Of a stretch of 49,418 bases of DNA, positions 22,644 to 28,835 are shown in pieces. Source of the stretch: Fructobacillus ficulneus (GTDB taxonomy: Bacteria; Bacillota; Bacilli; Lactobacillales; Lactobacillaceae); contig NZ_DF967986.1 of assembly GCF_001047075.2 (NCBI RefSeq), forward strand, positions 49,976 through 99,393, read 5' to 3'. How positions within the stretch are numbered: position 1 is the stretch's first letter; every line of letters begins with the position of its first letter. A model generated the notes under the pieces. That model was not told the DNA's origin and made no database searches. It saw only the letters and a program-made list of their open reading frames with translations. The position numbers and the translations under genes are program-made.

Positions 22644-23651
22644 ATGACGAATAATCAAGGAGCAGTTCAGCCGAGTGCTGAACATCAGGCACCAAGACCA
22701 AGGAGTCAAACCGAAAAACATGCTCATCTGCACCAAGCAACAGGACAATTATCACAGAAACCCTACTTAATTGGTATTTTTGTGAATTTGATTTTTGTCT
22801 TATCTGAGTTGGTTTTTGCTAAGATTGCTCATTCGACCGCTCTTTTTGCAGATGCCTTTCACAATTTATCAGATGTCTTGGCACTCGTGATTGCCTGGTT
22901 AGCAGTCCTAGTATTTGCAATCCAGGCTACTAAGAAAAAAACTTATGGCTGGCATAATGCCTCGATTTTAGCTTCGATTTTTAATATGGTGCTATTAGTC
23001 TTTGCAGTCGTTACGATTTTTTACGAGGCTGTTCGAGATTTAATTAATCCTGGTACAGTCCATACGAATGGCACCATCATCACTGTTGTCGCTGCAGTTG
23101 GGATTGTGGTTAACCTGTCGACCGCTTTGCTATTTAAAGTTTCGGGAACACCTGATGAACATGGACACCACCATGGACAGGATTTGAACGCCAAAACCGC
23201 TTACTTGCATTTACTTTCGGATGCTGCCGTTTCGATTGGCGTAATTGTTGCTGGTTGGCTAATTTCGATTACGGGTTGGCAAATAATTGATCCAATCGTT
23301 TCGTTAGTTATTGGCCTTGTGATTTTAGTATCGGCCTGGCCGGTTATGAAAGAGACAGTCAACTTGGCGATTAATGCTGTTCCGGAAACAGTCGATGAGG
23401 AAGCGATTAGCCAATATTTGATAGCCGCTGTTGGCGTGACGGGGCTCCATGATTTGCACATTTGGCCGATTTCAACGACGGAAACGGCTTTAACTGTACA
23501 CTTGTCAGTGAATGATATGGTCTTTGAAGATGGCCATGGGCAAACTTTTTTAAATCAAATTGAAAGCGATTTAAAAAATAATTATGGTATCCAGCACGTG
23601 ACGATTCAGTTAGAGAGTGCCGGTAGTCAAGATAACTGTAACGTAATTTAA
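22644..23651 (+). CDS. cation diffusion facilitator, Zn/Co/Cd-type exporter (CzcD-like)
   Basis: 335 aa membrane antiporter expelling divalent metal. The two intramembrane metal sites read ADAFHNLSD (TM2) and HLLSD (TM5), the His/Asp pattern linked to Zn and related metals. A His-rich cytoplasmic loop (HGHHHGQD, near residue 173) and a long N-terminal cytoplasmic stretch with HAHLH are typical of CzcD. The C-terminal cytoplasmic domain (about 250-335) contains DLHIWPIS. SD AGGAGG. It heads a block of metal genes reaching to 28.8 kb. Confidence 0.92.
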   Translation: MTNNQGAVQPSAEHQAPRPRSQTEKHAHLHQATGQLSQKPYLIGIFVNLIFVLSELVFAKIAHSTALFADAFHNLSDVLALVIAWLAVLVFAIQATKKKTYGWHNASILASIFNMVLLVFAVVTIFYEAVRDLINPGTVHTNGTIITVVAAVGIVVNLSTALLFKVSGTPDEHGHHHGQDLNAKTAYLHLLSDAAVSIGVIVAGWLISITGWQIIDPIVSLVIGLVILVSAWPVMKETVNLAINAVPETVDEEAISQYLIAAVGVTGLHDLHIWPISTTETALTVHLSVNDMVFEDGHGQTFLNQIESDLKNNYGIQHVTIQLESAGSQDNCNVI

Positions 23652-23664
23652 TTTTTAGAAAAGA

Positions 23665-23694
23665 AAGTTTTGAATGAAAATTCAAAGCTTTTTA
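23665..23694 (+). terminator. terminator of the CDF gene
   Basis: 11-bp stem AAGTTTTGAAT/ATTCAAAGCTT with GAAA loop, then TTTA. Confidence 0.85.
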
Positions 23695-23737
23695 TTTTTA
23701 AAAATCAACAAATTGTTTTTAATTTTAAATAAAAGGG

Positions 23738-23765
23738 TTGACCCATACTCTAAATAGGGTATGAT
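23738..23765 (+). promoter_or_regulatory. promoter and operator-like repeat of mntH copy 1
   Basis: TTGACC (23738-23743), 16 nt spacer, TATGAT (23760-23765). An imperfect inverted repeat CATACTC-N6-GGGTATG (23744-23763) fills the spacer and enters the -10, a typical repressor position; MntR is a natural candidate but the site does not match any box I know well. Confidence 0.7.
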
Positions 23766-23774
23766 AAATAAGAA

Positions 23775-23972
23775 CTTAGGAAGATAAAACGGGTTAACTA
23801 GCTTTCATAAGACTTCAATCGGGAACGATTGGCGGACGTTATGAAAATTATTTAACGCTTATAAACAAGTAGGACGGCTGTCTGCTTTTTTATAGTGTTT
23901 GAACTTAGTAGGTTAAATGGGACAATGCTGCCCAAAATCTAATAAAATTTAATTCGTTGAACTTTTCCTAAG
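23775..23972 (+). promoter_or_regulatory. candidate attenuator/riboswitch leader of mntH copy 1
   Basis: Structured leader shared with the second mntH (25591-25781). Nested stems: CTTAGGAA (23775-23782) with TTCCTAAG (23965-23972); GTTAA (23793-23797) with TTAAC (23852-23856); TTTCATAA (23803-23810) with TTATGAAA (23839-23846); inner CAATCG-GGAA-CGATTG (23816-23831). A terminator hairpin GTAGGAC/GTCTGC with TTTTTT follows at 23869-23890. GCGGAC (23832-23837) could pair with GTCTGC as antiterminator. The outer 3' strand sits 15 nt before the SD. I do not recognise it as yybP-ykoY. Confidence 0.75.
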
Positions 23973-24003
23973 AAATTTAGTATTTCAAAGGAGAATTATT
24001 ATC

Positions 24004-25398
24004 ATGATGGCATACACATACAATGATAATCAGCCACACGGCACATTGCTCACAAAGGGCGGCACTAAAAGCTTAGCGGAGGTGAACGGCAGTATTGCCG
24101 TTCCTAAAACTAATTCCTTTTGGCGCCGCCTCCTCGCATTTTTTGGTCCGGGGGCGTTAATCGCCGTCGGTTATATGGATCCGGGTAATTGGGTGACCTC
24201 CGTTCAAGGAGGGGCATCTTACCATTACCTCTTAATGTCGGTCGTCTTAATCTCGGCTGTTATTGGAATGCTCTTGCAGTACTTAGCCGGTAAGCTTGGC
24301 ATTGTGACCCAACAAGATCTCGCTCAAGCGACAGCACAACGAACTAATCGAGTAACCCGGTATTTTCTCTGGTTTATTACGGAACTAGCTTTAATTGCTA
24401 CTGACATTGCCGAAGTAGTTGGCGGCGCGATTGCCTTGAACCTGCTCTTCGGTTGGCCGTTAATTTTAACGGTGATGATGACAGCCTTTGATGTGATTTT
24501 GCTCTTAGGGTTAATGAAATTTGGCTTTCGAAAAATTGAAGCTTTGGTTATGACGTTGATTTTGACCATTCTCTTTGTCTGTCTGTACTTGGTTATTTTA
24601 TCTAAGCCGGATTTAGCTGGGGTTTTTGCTGGTAGTATCCCTCAACCAGAAATTTTATCACCACAAGCCTATCACGGCTTGGCTAGTCCACTCTTCTTAA
24701 CGGCAGGAATTATCGGAGCAACAGTTACCCCCCACAATTTATATTTGCATTCATCAATTGTTCAAACTCGGCAAGTTGACCATTCAAATCGAGCTGAGGT
24801 TCGAAGTGCTATTAAGTGTATGGCCTGGGATTCGAATCTGCAATTAAGCTTGGCTTTTGTCGTCAATGCCCTATTATTGATTGTTGGTGCAGCACTCTTT
24901 TATGGCCACGCTGATGAGTTGGCATCATTTAAAGCCATGTACCTGGCCTTACAAAATAATAATTTGGCCGGGGCGATTGCTTCACCATTCTTGTCGACTA
25001 TTTTTGCGGTTGCCTTGCTAGCATCCGGACAAAATTCAACAATTACTGGAACCTTAGCTGGTGAAATCATCATGGAAGGGTTCTTGCACTTTAAAATGCC
25101 AATGTGGGTGCGCCGGATTTTGACTCGTGGTCTGGCTTTGGTACCGGTAATTTTGATTACTATGGCCTATGGTGGTCAAGAACACCAGCTTGACCAGCTG
25201 ATTACTGGAACTCAGGTCTTTCTCTCGGTCGTCTTGCCGTTTTCAATGGCACCGTTGATCTACTTCACGTCATCCAAAAAAATCATGGGTCCCTTTGTTA
25301 ATCGGAAGGGAATCACGATTGTGGCTTGGATCTGCTTCGTCATTTTGAGTATTTTGAATCTGTGGCTTGTTTGGCAACAGTGCACGCAAGGATTTTAA
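24004..25398 (+). CDS. mntH: Nramp-family divalent metal transporter, copy 1 (MPH motif altered)
   Basis: Proton-coupled importer normally for Mn2+ (also Fe2+, Cd2+), 464 aa with 11 helices expected. TM1 metal motif DPGNWVTS is intact (near residue 60). In TM6 the metal-binding Met is replaced: the codon is ACC, giving ATVTPHNLYLHSS (near 239-251) where the second copy and nearly all Nramps have VMPH. In studied Nramps that Met disfavours Ca and Mg, so selectivity may be relaxed or shifted. AAAGGAG lies 10 nt before ATG 24004. It has its own promoter and structured leader. Confidence 0.93.
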   Translation: MMAYTYNDNQPHGTLLTKGGTKSLAEVNGSIAVPKTNSFWRRLLAFFGPGALIAVGYMDPGNWVTSVQGGASYHYLLMSVVLISAVIGMLLQYLAGKLGIVTQQDLAQATAQRTNRVTRYFLWFITELALIATDIAEVVGGAIALNLLFGWPLILTVMMTAFDVILLLGLMKFGFRKIEALVMTLILTILFVCLYLVILSKPDLAGVFAGSIPQPEILSPQAYHGLASPLFLTAGIIGATVTPHNLYLHSSIVQTRQVDHSNRAEVRSAIKCMAWDSNLQLSLAFVVNALLLIVGAALFYGHADELASFKAMYLALQNNNLAGAIASPFLSTIFAVALLASGQNSTITGTLAGEIIMEGFLHFKMPMWVRRILTRGLALVPVILITMAYGGQEHQLDQLITGTQVFLSVVLPFSMAPLIYFTSSKKIMGPFVNRKGITIVAWICFVILSILNLWLVWQQCTQGF

Positions 25399-25488
25399 AA
25401 TTAATAAAATATCTTCAAAATCCGAATGATGTCCGATAAAATAAAATGAAAATTAAATTAGTTTTAAATCATGAATCTTTTATAAATG

Positions 25489-25505
25489 CTGGTATACCAG
25501 TTTTT
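25489..25505 (+). terminator. palindrome CTGGTATACCAG with T run
   Basis: 12-bp perfect palindrome followed by TTTTT, after mntH copy 1. It could be a weak terminator (4-bp stem, TATA loop) or an operator. Confidence 0.4.
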
Positions 25506-25529
25506 AATATTTATAATTATGATTAGTTA

Positions 25530-25580
25530 AAGTGATGTTACAAAAATATCACTTGACCTATAAAATGTACCATGTAATAG
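25530..25580 (+). promoter_or_regulatory. promoter and operator-like repeat of mntH copy 2
   Basis: TTGACC (25553-25558), 16 nt spacer, TAATAG (25575-25580), aligned with the promoter of copy 1. A perfect inverted repeat AAGTGAT (25530-25536) / ATCACTT (25548-25554) overlaps the -35; it differs from the repeat at copy 1. Confidence 0.6.
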
Positions 25581-25590
25581 TTAACATAGA

Positions 25591-25781
25591 CTTAGGAAAA
25601 GTAATTGAGTTAAGTAGCTTTCATAAGCTTTCAACAACCAAGTTGAATGAAATCCTTTATGAAAATTATTTAGCGCTTGAAGATAAATTGAATCATCGCA
25701 AGGCCCTTCATTTGTTGGACCTTAACGATAGTTTTTTTGATTTTGTTTATTTTTAAGTCATAATTCAGTTCGAGTCCCTGA
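25591..25781 (+). promoter_or_regulatory. candidate attenuator/riboswitch leader of mntH copy 2
   Basis: Counterpart of 23775-23972. Identical blocks TAGCTTTCATAAG (25615-25627) and TTATGAAAATTATTTA (25657-25672). Stems: GTTAA (25609-25613) with TTAGC (25670-25674); TTTCATAA with TTATGAAA; the inner hairpin is TTCAAC/GTTGAA (25630-25647), a different sequence that keeps pairing; CTTAGG (25591-25596) with CCTGAG (about 25776-25781), one G-T pair. A terminator ATCG-AAGG/CCTT-CGAT with a T run lies at 25695-25738. Confidence 0.75.
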
Positions 25782-25807
25782 GGATAACCCCCAAAGGAGA
25801 AACAATA

Positions 25808-27199
25808 ATGGATAATTCTGAAAAGAAGTCAAGACACTCATTGATTGAGCATACTGGCGAAAAAAGTTTATCTGAAGTAAACGGGTCAATTGAAGTGCCC
25901 AAGGGAGCACCATTTTGGCGTAGATTGATGGCTTTTTCTGGGCCTGGAGCCTTAGTGGCAGTTGGTTATATGGATCCCGGTAACTGGGTAACCTCGGTTG
26001 CTGGTGGGGCTTCATACCACTATCTTTTGCTATCAGTTATTTTGATTTCCTCATTAATCGCCATGCTCTTGCAGTATATGGCAGGGAAGTTGGGAATTGT
26101 TAAGCAAGAAGACTTGGCCCAAGCCACGGGAAACCGGACGAATAAGTTTGGCCGATATTCACTCTGGATTATGACCGAATTAGCCTTGGTTGCCACGGAT
26201 ATTGCCGAAGTTGTTGGTGGAGCGATTGCCTTGAGCTTGCTCTTCGGTTGGCCACTTTTGGTCACGGTCTTTATGACGGCCTTCGATGTGGTCTTGTTGC
26301 TTGGTTTGATGAAGTTTGGTTTCCGGAAGATTGAAGCGATTGTCATGACTTTAATTTTGACAATCTTGTTCGTCTTCCTCTACTTAACAATCTTGTCAAA
26401 GCCAGATATGGGGGCTTTGTTCGGGGGTTACTTGCCTCGACCAAAGACCCTATCACCATCCGGTTTGCATGGCTTGCAAAGTCCTTTGTTCCTAACTGCT
26501 GGGATCATTGGGGCAACGGTTATGCCTCATAACTTGTACCTCCATTCATCAATCTCACAAACTCGTAAGATTGACCATGATAACCCCGAAGAAGTGCGTG
26601 ATGCCGTTAAGTTAATGACTTGGGATTCTAACATTCAATTGACTTTGGCCTTCGTCGTTAACACGTTGCTTTTGGTTGTTGGAGCCGCTTTGTTCTTTGG
26701 GCATGCTAGCGAATTGGATTCATTTAAGGCCATGTATAATGCCTTGGGTGACAGCCATATTGCTGGAGCAATTGCTTCACCATTCTTATCAACACTTTTT
26801 GCCTTGGCTTTGTTGGCTTCAGGTCAAAATTCAACCATCACTGGAACATTAACTGGTGAAATCATCATGGAAGGGTTCTTGCACTTGCGCGTGCCAATGT
26901 GGCTTCGTCGTGTAATTACCCGTGGAATTGCCTTGGCTCCTGTTTTGGCAATTACCATCATTTACGGTGGTAATGAGTATCAATTGGATAACTTAATTAC
27001 TGCTACCCAGGTCTTCTTGTCAGTGGCCTTGCCATTCTCAATGGCACCATTGATTTACTTCACCTCTTCAAAGAAGATTATGGGCGAATACGCTAACAGT
27101 AAGTGGATTACTTGGACTGGTTGGATTTGTTTTGCTGTTTTGTCAGTGATTAACGTCTGGTTGGTTCTTGACCAATTCTTCCCACAGTACTTCGGCTAA
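25808..27199 (+). CDS. mntH: Nramp-family manganese transporter, copy 2
   Basis: 463 aa, clearly homologous to copy 1 along its length. Both metal motifs are canonical: DPGNWVTS in TM1 and ATVMPHNLYLHSS in TM6, so Mn2+ import is expected. Codon use is more biased (TTG, GCC, AAG) than in copy 1, suggesting this is the main, highly expressed importer. SD AAAGGAG. The usp gene follows after 58 bases without a terminator, so the two are probably co-transcribed. Confidence 0.95.
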   Translation: MDNSEKKSRHSLIEHTGEKSLSEVNGSIEVPKGAPFWRRLMAFSGPGALVAVGYMDPGNWVTSVAGGASYHYLLLSVILISSLIAMLLQYMAGKLGIVKQEDLAQATGNRTNKFGRYSLWIMTELALVATDIAEVVGGAIALSLLFGWPLLVTVFMTAFDVVLLLGLMKFGFRKIEAIVMTLILTILFVFLYLTILSKPDMGALFGGYLPRPKTLSPSGLHGLQSPLFLTAGIIGATVMPHNLYLHSSISQTRKIDHDNPEEVRDAVKLMTWDSNIQLTLAFVVNTLLLVVGAALFFGHASELDSFKAMYNALGDSHIAGAIASPFLSTLFALALLASGQNSTITGTLTGEIIMEGFLHLRVPMWLRRVITRGIALAPVLAITIIYGGNEYQLDNLITATQVFLSVALPFSMAPLIYFTSSKKIMGEYANSKWITWTGWICFAVLSVINVWLVLDQFFPQYFG

Positions 27200-27257
27200 A
27201 AAATAAATAAAGACAATTTAGATTTTTAAGATGTTCGAAAGCTAAAAGGAGGCAGTA

Positions 27258-27719
27258 ATGGCTGAATTGAAATTAGAAGTAGAACCAAAACAATTTAAAA
27301 CTATTTTGGTTGGTGTTGATGAATCGGAGCAGGGCTATAATGCCTTGGCTAATGGCATTCACCAAGCTCGTGAAGACGATGCTAAGTTGGTGATTGCTAC
27401 CGTTTTGGAAATGGGAGACCTATCTACCATTTCGGCGTTGCACCTGGATTTTATTAAAGAGAAGCGCCAAGAACTGGAAAAAAACTTAGAAAAGTATCGT
27501 CAATTTGCCAATGATCGTGGATTGACTAATGTTGAAGTTGTTTTCGATGATGGAATTAAAGCTGGTGAAATCCTAAATGATGAAATTGCTCCCCGTGTTG
27601 GGGCTGATTTAATTGTTGTCGGTGCCCATTCACATGAAGGATTCTGGGACTCAATTGGATCACAGGCGGCATATATTGCTCGTAACGCCAAGGTTTCTAC
27701 TTTAATTGTCAAAGACTAA
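27258..27719 (+). CDS. universal stress protein (UspA family)
   Basis: 153 aa single-domain Usp. N-terminal ILVGVDESEQG and C-terminal VVGAHSHEGFWDSIGSQAAYIARNA give the nucleotide-binding fold; the glycine loop is imperfect compared with the classical G-x2-G-x9-G-S/T, so ATP binding is not certain. AGGAGG SD. Co-transcribed with mntH copy 2, a pairing that suggests a role under metal or oxidative stress. Confidence 0.9.
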   Translation: MAELKLEVEPKQFKTILVGVDESEQGYNALANGIHQAREDDAKLVIATVLEMGDLSTISALHLDFIKEKRQELEKNLEKYRQFANDRGLTNVEVVFDDGIKAGEILNDEIAPRVGADLIVVGAHSHEGFWDSIGSQAAYIARNAKVSTLIVKD

Positions 27720-27762
27720 GTTAATAAAAGTGTAGTTCACTTGTTTGTGAAACAGCTGGAAA

Positions 27763-27802
27763 AGTCTGGTATTGATATAAAATCAAAACCAGGCTTTTTT
27801 TT
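27763..27802 (+). terminator. terminator of mntH copy 2 - usp
   Basis: AGTCTGGT and ACCAGGCT, continued inward by TTGAT/ATCAA, then a run of T. Confidence 0.95.
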
Positions 27803-27806
27803 GCTC

Positions 27807-27862
27807 TATACATGAAAAAATATTCATGTTATACTAAATGCAATATATGAAAAATAATTCAT
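27807..27862 (+). promoter_or_regulatory. promoter with two ArsR/SmtB-type operators
   Basis: TATACA (27807-27812), 17 nt, TATACT (27830-27835). Two repeats of the same geometry: CATGAA-N6-TTCATG (27811-27828) inside the promoter spacer and ATGAA-N6-TTCAT (27847-27862) just before the SD. TGAA-N6-TTCA is the core of SmtB/CzrA-type sites, and an ArsR gene ends the operon. Confidence 0.82.
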
Positions 27863-27877
27863 TTTAAGAGGAAGAAA

Positions 27878-28492
27878 ATGGGAACGCTAATAACAGGACT
27901 GGTATCGTATTTAGGTACTTCATCGGATTACTTCATTATTTTGGTATTAATTTTCGCGACCTTCCGTCAAAAAAATCAGGTTCGACCAATTATAATAGGT
28001 GCTTATTTAGGTAATGCTTTGCTAGTGCTGATTGCCTTTTTAGTTGGTTTGACCCTTAAGCAAGTACCAGCTGAGTGGTTGCTAGGATTATTAGGATTAA
28101 TCCCAATTATTTTAGGGGTTAAGAACTTTTTAACTGAGGAAGAAGAGGAAGAGGGGGAAGTCTTTGTTGAAAAGCTGAGTCAGACAGCCAGTCATAAAAT
28201 TGTGATGACGGTAGTTGTGATGACCATCGCATCATGTGGAGCCGATAATTTAGCTTTGTATATTCCGTATTTTTCATTAGCTGGATTAGATTTGTTGCCA
28301 ATTATCTTTGCGATGTTTTTCTTGATTTTGACACTTAGTATGGTTGCTGCCTATCACTTAGCCCAGGTTAAGCAGATTCAAGAGGTGTTTGAAAAGTTTG
28401 GTGATGGAATTCAATCATTGGTGTATTTAATCTTAGGAATTTATATTTTATTTGAAGCTGGGACCGTGACACATTTAATTTCCTTGCTATAA
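27878..28492 (+). CDS. cadD: CadD-family heavy-metal resistance transporter
   Basis: 204 aa membrane protein with about five to six helices of the CadD cadmium-resistance family (LysE superfamily fold): SYLGTSSDYFIILVLIFA at the N-terminus, GAYLGNALLV, an acidic loop EEEEEEGE (near residue 87-94) and ASCGADNLALYIPYF. Proposed to export Cd2+ or Zn2+. It is followed 7 bases later by its ArsR repressor gene and preceded by two operator sites. Substrate is inferred from family and the type of sensor. Confidence 0.88.
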   Translation: MGTLITGLVSYLGTSSDYFIILVLIFATFRQKNQVRPIIIGAYLGNALLVLIAFLVGLTLKQVPAEWLLGLLGLIPIILGVKNFLTEEEEEEGEVFVEKLSQTASHKIVMTVVVMTIASCGADNLALYIPYFSLAGLDLLPIIFAMFFLILTLSMVAAYHLAQVKQIQEVFEKFGDGIQSLVYLILGIYILFEAGTVTHLISLL

Positions 28493-28499
28493 TGAGGAT

Positions 28500-28835
28500 A
28501 TGAAAAAAGACGTGCAAAAAGAATTGAGTTTGATTTTTAAGCTGTTAGGGTCAGAAAAGCGGTTAGCTATTTTGACGTTATTGCGTGAAAAGCCATATTC
28601 AGTATCAGAATTGGTGGATCAGCTTCAAATGGAACAGTCTGCCGTTTCACACCAGTTGCAAATGCTCCGAGACGCTCAGGTTGTAACTGTTGAAAAACGC
28701 GGCCGTTTAGCTTATTATCAATTAAACGACTCCCACATTTTAACTTTACTAAATAATGCCGAGGGTCATGTTCAGCATGTCTTGAATCACCAAACGCACG
28801 CTGAAGCTGAACAGGATAAAAATAATCAAAATTAA
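28500..28835 (+). CDS. ArsR/SmtB-family metal-sensing repressor, CzrA-like
   Basis: 111 aa winged-helix repressor released from DNA by metal. The helix-turn-helix is in SVSELVDQLQMEQSAVSHQL (residues about 34-53). No N-terminal Cys pair is present, so the Cd/Pb site of CadC is missing. The C-terminal helix carries D-x-H-x10-H-x2-H (Asp and His of NDSHIL, His of EGHVQH), exactly the spacing of the alpha5 Zn/Co site of CzrA and SmtB. Predicted to sense Zn or Co and to repress its own operon through the two sites upstream of cadD. Confidence 0.92.
   Translation: MKKDVQKELSLIFKLLGSEKRLAILTLLREKPYSVSELVDQLQMEQSAVSHQLQMLRDAQVVTVEKRGRLAYYQLNDSHILTLLNNAEGHVQHVLNHQTHAEAEQDKNNQN

Follow-up and report, generated by a model that had tools for sequence, protein, structure and literature searches.

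The Nramp-type genes mntH1 and mntH2 of Fructobacillus ficulneus, 73% identical and each preceded by a long leader, carry in these leaders a structured RNA that we assign, with a probability of about 0.55, to an unrecorded class of cis-regulatory RNAs controlling the translation of one group of mntH genes. Control would be exerted through a switch between a helix, P0, and an anti-Shine-Dalgarno (anti-SD) pairing, with the P1-P2-P3 arm acting as aptamer for the imported metal, most likely Mn2+. The class looks like a new one within a known kind, the riboswitch-like leader RNAs. The arm, P0 and the predicted shared anti-SD strand are supported by comparison and folding; Mn2+ is our leading guess for the sensed ligand.

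Both genes lie in a stretch of 49,418 nucleotides, the window, whose relevant features are compiled in Table 1. They belong to a metal island at 22644-28835 in which a cation-efflux gene, mntH1, mntH2, a universal stress protein (usp) gene and the genes of a cadmium-resistance-type transporter and an ArsR-type regulator are consecutive. The usp gene is possibly co-transcribed with mntH2. Promoter-like sites are present before both leaders where aligned TTGACC promoters had been proposed, but the scan yielded 10 such sites in the region versus 6.4 expected, so that by themselves these sites are weak evidence.

Table 1. Features of the mntH1-mntH2 locus (window positions).
Feature	Position	Strand	Basis
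Promoter-like site 1, TTGACC-16-TATGAT	23738..23765	+	consensus scan
Copy 1 P0 5' strand (CTTAGGAAG...CGGG)	23775..23793	+	MFE fold; duplex with 23954-23972
Copy 1 P1-P2-P3 conserved element, GCGGAC-loop variant	23790..23860	+	model R1, 66.1 bits, E 6.3e-12
Copy 1 P3 hairpin (TCAATCG...CGATTGG)	23815..23832	+	fold tests on core and P3 regions
Copy 1 P0 3' strand	23954..23972	+	predicted SD partners once the 5' strand is masked; anti-SD TTTCCT at 23964-23969
Copy 1 Shine-Dalgarno AAAGGAG	23987..23993	+	sequence; predicted openness of AGGAG 0.70, falling to 0.01 once the 5' strand is masked
mntH1 (Nramp)	24004..25398	+	Pfam Nramp E 1.8e-100; metal-site Met replaced by Thr (GATVTPH)
Promoter-like site 2, TTGACC-17-AATAGT	25553..25581	+	consensus scan
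Copy 2 P0 5' strand	25591..25609	+	fold and duplex prediction
Copy 2 P1-P2-P3 conserved element, common GAAA-loop form	25606..25678	+	model R1, 101.1 bits, E 5.9e-20 (copy 2 is among the sequences from which R1 was built)
Copy 2 P0 3' strand	25764..25783	+	predicted SD partners; anti-SD TCCCT at 25775-25779
Copy 2 Shine-Dalgarno AAAGGAG	25793..25799	+	sequence; predicted openness of AGGAG 0.54, falling to 0.24 once the 5' strand is masked
mntH2 (Nramp)	25808..27199	+	Pfam Nramp E 2.4e-103; usual GATVMPH site
Universal stress protein gene	27258..27719	+	Pfam Usp E 3.6e-21; 58 bases downstream of mntH2

The two leaders share the strings TAGCTTTCATAAG (23799-23811 and 25615-25627) and TTATGAAAATTATTTA (23839-23854 and 25657-25672) described in the original prediction. 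Neither string has a further match in the window, with up to one mismatch allowed in the first and two in the second (shuffles average 0.10 and 0.18). The single arm is composed of P1 (GTTAA.TA/TATTTAGC), P2 (TCATAAG/CTTTATGA and neighbours) and the hairpin P3, and is closed in both window leaders by P0, a long helix between 5' and 3' strands. The anatomy proposed beforehand is recovered: the inner hairpin retains its pairing between the copies despite a changed sequence, and the GTTAA stem and the outer CTTAGG stem are present in the predicted folds. Whole leaders are predicted to be more stable than shuffled sequences (z of -4.5 for copy 1 and -3.4 for copy 2), and so are their cores (z of -5.1 and -3.9). 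The arm has an asymmetric internal loop (GAAA..C on the 3' side), whose conservation reaches at least 90% among the distinct alignment rows without GCGGAC (44 of 48).

Covariance model R1, built from 17 sequences with 73 positions and 23 pairs, detected the element in 57 of the 397 Lactobacillaceae genomes and 7 of the 40 genera searched. The two window places are the only sense-strand R1 matches in their own genome, which is 89% complete. DNA searches gave strong matches (E 3e-15 or better) in all 12 same-genus genomes and in four other genera; at E up to 1, 59 of 60 matched, most matches beyond the strong set being due to chance. A model R2 used with strict filters, at which weak matches may be lost, detected carriers at two wider ranks, 8 among 395 genomes of the order and 1 among 299 of the class, and all of them are Lactobacillaceae. 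The named carriers are Fructobacillus, Leuconostoc, Convivina, Weissella and Paucilactobacillus. A pattern search of the named collection gave 54 stretches, of which R2 confirmed 51 but not the three outside Lactobacillaceae (Maribacter, Alkalinema and Synechococcales).

The 69 aligned rows correspond to 66 distinct places, 64 of them upstream of mntH as judged by blastp to the window MntH proteins, which supports the expectation of a structured cis-regulatory RNA before this gene. Conserved secondary structure is found in the 5' leaders of functionally related genes, a property of riboswitches. The other two places, in two Weissella genomes that each have two element-bearing mntH copies as well, precede a DyP-type peroxidase gene, assigned by Pfam in one of these genomes. 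This third Weissella element (L086:561-1640 and L083) has yet another internal loop, CCGATTATT. Association is restricted to one mntH group: in an MntH2 search of 35 genomes, covering 33 of the 57 carriers plus two non-carriers, all 41 mntH matches with at least 67% identity to MntH2 have the element upstream, and none of the 10 with 64% identity or less. The element-free second type (at most 64% identity) stands beside an element-bearing mntH in genomes G404, G418, G246, G379, G388 and G143. Outside Fructobacillus, 31 of 43 leaders (2.0 expected) have a second conserved motif, AGTRAATA-like, downstream of P1 and ahead of the start codon; it was left out of the model because only 1 of 18 Fructobacillus leaders has it (0.8 expected).

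The covariation check suggested with the original prediction gave strong results in permutation tests on whole helices but was negative in the tree-aware test of single pairs. Across the 48 distinct rows of the arm alignment, pairing holds in 96.6% of cells, and changes on both sides are seen in 24 cells, versus 5.1 in shuffles. When the partner is slid by +1, 25 cells are changed on both sides but only 42% of cells pair. Seven of the 17 P1/P2 pairs are invariant. The tree-aware covariation test on the 48 rows returned no base pair at E 0.05 or better; it has little power because conservation is high, and its null result counts against a strong claim of covariation. Each of the 39 distinct P3 regions folds into a hairpin that begins within the region's first 2-4 bases. 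In permutation tests that ignore relatedness, random re-pairing of P3 halves never reached the real mean (0 of 20000, likewise 0 of 20000 for the 21 diverged types), and over 61 leaders none of 20000 swaps of P0 strands paired as well as the native combinations. Swaps as good within groups, out of 20000, numbered 579 in Fructobacillus, 55 in the Leuconostoc group, 341 in Weissella-2 and 4 in Weissella/Paucilactobacillus. Single P0 duplexes are unremarkable against shuffled 3' regions, the mean share of shuffles at least as good being 0.08, 0.29, 0.06 and 0.19 in the same groups.

P0 is predicted to link the arm to the region of the ribosome binding site. When the P0 5' strand is masked, the P0 3' strand is predicted to supply most SD partners in 47 of 61 leaders, the strand being taken from the duplex in 13 of the 61 where P0 is too weak in the ensemble (its span in L039 amounts to 43% of the RNA). 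By group, these partners are found in 17 of 18 Fructobacillus, 20 of 23 Leuconostoc group, 10 of 15 Weissella/Paucilactobacillus and none of 5 Weissella-2 leaders. The anti-SD is often TTCCT, about 30 bases upstream of the start codon. Masking lowers the mean predicted openness of the SD in all four groups (0.40 to 0.13, 0.54 to 0.24, 0.67 to 0.41 and 0.51 to 0.37), with little or opposite effect in several Weissella and Paucilactobacillus leaders. Since the P0 3' strand is the predicted anti-SD strand in these 47 leaders, a translational switch is suggested; by prediction they fit an expression platform of mutually exclusive helices, and the Weissella-2 leaders do not. The latter (L025, L087, L093, L095 and L096) share by eye a different 3' domain, AAAGAC...GACAGGTTAG...CCGG..GAACTCGC-like, which suggests a rebuilt expression platform. 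Translational riboswitches in which the 3' strand of the closing helix doubles as anti-SD are known, the add adenine riboswitch being one example, and the predicted platform of the mntH leaders works alike. The mntH leaders differ from them in having no Rfam match, in the genes served and presumably in the ligand.

In the mechanism that we privilege, P0 would join the 5' end of the transcript to the strand just upstream of the ribosome site, closing the P1-P2-P3 arm. The SD would be free while P0 is closed (ON); on opening of P0 its freed 3' strand would pair with AGGAG/GGAGG and hide the SD (OFF). Metal bound to the arm would favour the full P1 over P0, GTT being common to both helices, and translation would be OFF at high Mn. 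In 54 of 61 leaders no more than one base separates the end of P0 from GTTAA, and in 36 of 61 the helix could continue through the GTT of P1; in window copy 1 the run-on of P0 displaces P1 entirely (predicted P1 probability 0.00). The OFF direction has little thermodynamic support because forcing P1 hardly shifts the predicted openness of the SD, which at 37 C is 0.40 free, 0.39 with P1 forced and 0.43 with P1 blocked in Fructobacillus. Openness is lower with P1 than without it in 31 of 61 leaders and higher in 5 (37 C). P1 was therefore not retained as the SD-closing part, its predicted effect being only small. By anatomy alone the sign could be the opposite, a ligand that stabilises P0 turning translation ON.

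Comparison with known RNA families supports the novelty of the class. In cmscan no Rfam 15 family reached its gathering score in the two leaders, nor in 12 homologous loci; at E up to 10 there were three weak matches far below the cut-offs, to two microRNA families and one Staphylococcus sRNA. The initial view that the leaders are not yybP-ykoY agrees with the lack of any cmscan match to this family even at E 10. No yybP-ykoY RNA was found in 37 family genomes, including that of the window, under strict filters with which the same search matched in 4 of 14 control genomes. The yybP-ykoY Mn2+ riboswitch (RF00080) is, like the mntH leader, a leader RNA tied to Mn homeostasis genes and built of several helices meeting at a junction. 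It mainly serves other genes, such as exporters, whereas importer genes lie behind the mntH-leader RNA. Identity with Lacto-usp (RF01710), which had been considered, is countered by the lack of a cmscan match in the window leaders; a search of the same genome was also empty, as were its controls. The resemblance is that Lacto-usp is a Lactobacillales RNA named for usp genes and that a usp gene follows mntH2. The article listing Lacto-usp mentions neither mntH nor manganese in the accessible portion of its main text (PMC2864571). No description of an mntH leader RNA was found in the literature covered, which includes the accessible parts of PMC9495176, PMC3616900, PMC8826399, PMC2864571 and PMC8414754; most subscription papers and bioRxiv lie outside this coverage, and an earlier description is possible.

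A hint on the sensed metal comes from the five copy-1 leaders, which combine a loop variant with a change in the transporter. All five GCGGAC-loop leaders are copy-1 leaders and precede an mntH with GATVTPH, and all 62 rows without this loop that have a readable mntH (59 distinct places) show GATVMPH. At residue 242 of MntH1 the metal-coordinating Met of the Nramp motif is a Thr, as in the four other copy-1 MntH proteins. Alignment to the solved MntH structure 5m87, which we take to be EcoDMT, places this Thr opposite the metal-site Met. The Met of EcoDMT is a soft metal ligand whose exchange for Ala keeps Mn transport and admits Ca, according to PMC8806188. Judged from its sequence, MntH1 may have a changed substrate or activity. 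The copy-1 genes are probably one lineage, and for this reason the coupling of loop and Met-to-Thr change is probably a single event. The copy-1 MntH encoded on the reverse strand of L039 (mntH1 of genome G012), the fifth of the set, has GPGN where the others have DPGN and so has lost a conserved metal-site Asp too. Relaxed constraint on the duplicate, with decay of the metal site, is therefore a fair alternative to a changed metal preference.

Other readings of the leaders were weighed. Termination of transcription inside them, as originally proposed, fits the predictions less well than hiding of the SD and we consider it improbable. U-runs are present in Fructobacillus leaders and the hairpins first described fold weakly, to -5.4 kcal/mol (23866-23890) and to -8.7 to -9.8 kcal/mol (25695/25690-25738). 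However, a consensus scan of 23650-25815 found no terminator inside either leader. Its sole terminator-like site (shuffles average 2.2) lies at 25488-25501, upstream of promoter-like site 2; it is a palindromic hairpin, GCTGGTATACCAGT, followed by TTTT, and is possibly the mntH1 terminator. A hairpin of -6 kcal/mol or below directly before a U-run occurs in only 6 of 61 leaders and in none of 20 in Weissella/Paucilactobacillus, by a script strict on stem ends, in which window copy 1 came out as 'none' and copy 2 at -2.4. Half of these six hairpins, found in three other Fructobacillus genomes, are fairly strong (-9.2, -9.2 and -14.7). The conserved stable hairpin with U-run that would characterise an intrinsic-terminator attenuator was thus not found in the leaders. 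The GCGGAC antiterminator put forward for copy 1 is rejected because its partner is not conserved: GCGGAC is present in 5 of 5 copy-1 leaders and GTCTGC, by eye, only in the window copy. A double-stranded DNA operator seems highly improbable. In its favour, the core forms an imperfect inverted repeat close downstream of the promoter, and R1 gives weak opposite-strand matches at many elements (E 0.003 to 0.1), but an operator needs neither the P3 pairing kept while arms and length change nor a P0 joining strands far apart. Hardly credible is a translated leader peptide (SFHKLSTTKLNEILYENYLAL in copy 2) in place of a structured RNA. Of 48 distinct rows, 31 have the frame open across the element but 17 contain a stop, and 14 of these 17 have a length other than 73 nt. 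Its third codon position is barely more variable than the others (0.110 versus 0.094 and 0.106; 31 rows) and an in-frame start preceded by an SD-like stretch is found in 1 of 61 leaders, so that a conserved translatable frame with start and ribosome site, as in a leader-peptide attenuator, is not seen.

Two readings that keep the structured RNA deserve more attention. Rather unlikely, in our view, is that the leader serves to bind a protein or small RNA instead of sensing a ligand directly. Helices hold much of the conserved sequence, a pattern possible for a protein-binding leader, and all confirmed matches fall within one family, but the unpaired internal loop is conserved too; we know of no candidate binder. 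Unlikely as well, though to be taken seriously, is the same translational switch responding to another signal (oxidative stress, haem, a nucleotide signal or pH) as an ON switch whose ligand stabilises P0. This reading agrees with the anatomy, since P0 closes the domain and its closure would free the SD. The two places before a DyP-type peroxidase, which is not an importer, would fit oxidative stress or haem and speak, like the 13 of 57 carriers with a DtxR/MntR-type domain, against the main reading. A review reports that acidic conditions activate MntH transporters (PMC8826399). The ON switch for another signal is opposed by the predominance of places at a metal importer and by the loop variant that tracks the metal-site change, although the latter may be one event. 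We retain the metal-responsive translational switch as the main reading.

The element also bears on how mntH is regulated in the family. In other lactic acid bacteria mntH is also a target of MntR, a DtxR-family protein repressor and not a leader RNA, according to PMC8826399 and PMC3616900. The DtxR/MntR C-terminal domain PF02742 is found in none of 13 Fructobacillus and 13 of 44 other carriers, all of them Weissella, Paucilactobacillus or L. fallax, and in 16 of 20 family genomes without the element; a match is not proof of MntR and the groups compared are related, hence these counts are context only. No DtxR/MntR-type domain was found in the tested genomes of Fructobacillus (13), Convivina (2) and the main Leuconostoc genus (19), and L. 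fallax, a separate genus there, has one. Simple replacement of MntR by the leader RNA is weakened by the carriers with PF02742. A bolder proposal, which we consider doubtful, is that the leaders are a second class of Mn2+ riboswitch with no relation to yybP-ykoY, acting on importer translation and taking the place of MntR in Leuconostoc and Fructobacillus. The GCGGAC loop would then be a natural specificity variant evolved together with the Met-to-Thr change, sensor and transporter shifting metal preference jointly.

According to a review (PMC8826399), MntH ranks among the main manganese importers of lactic acid bacteria, and deleting it in one Lacticaseibacillus abolished the protection of dairy products against spoilage. 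Because the genomes tested of Fructobacillus, Convivina and the main Leuconostoc genus yielded no DtxR/MntR-type domain, regulation of mntH in these bacteria is in need of an answer, and the leader RNA offers a concrete and testable one. If Mn2+ sensing is true, the element would add a new fold to the metal-sensing RNAs, and its pair of natural variants could serve to work out metal specificity.
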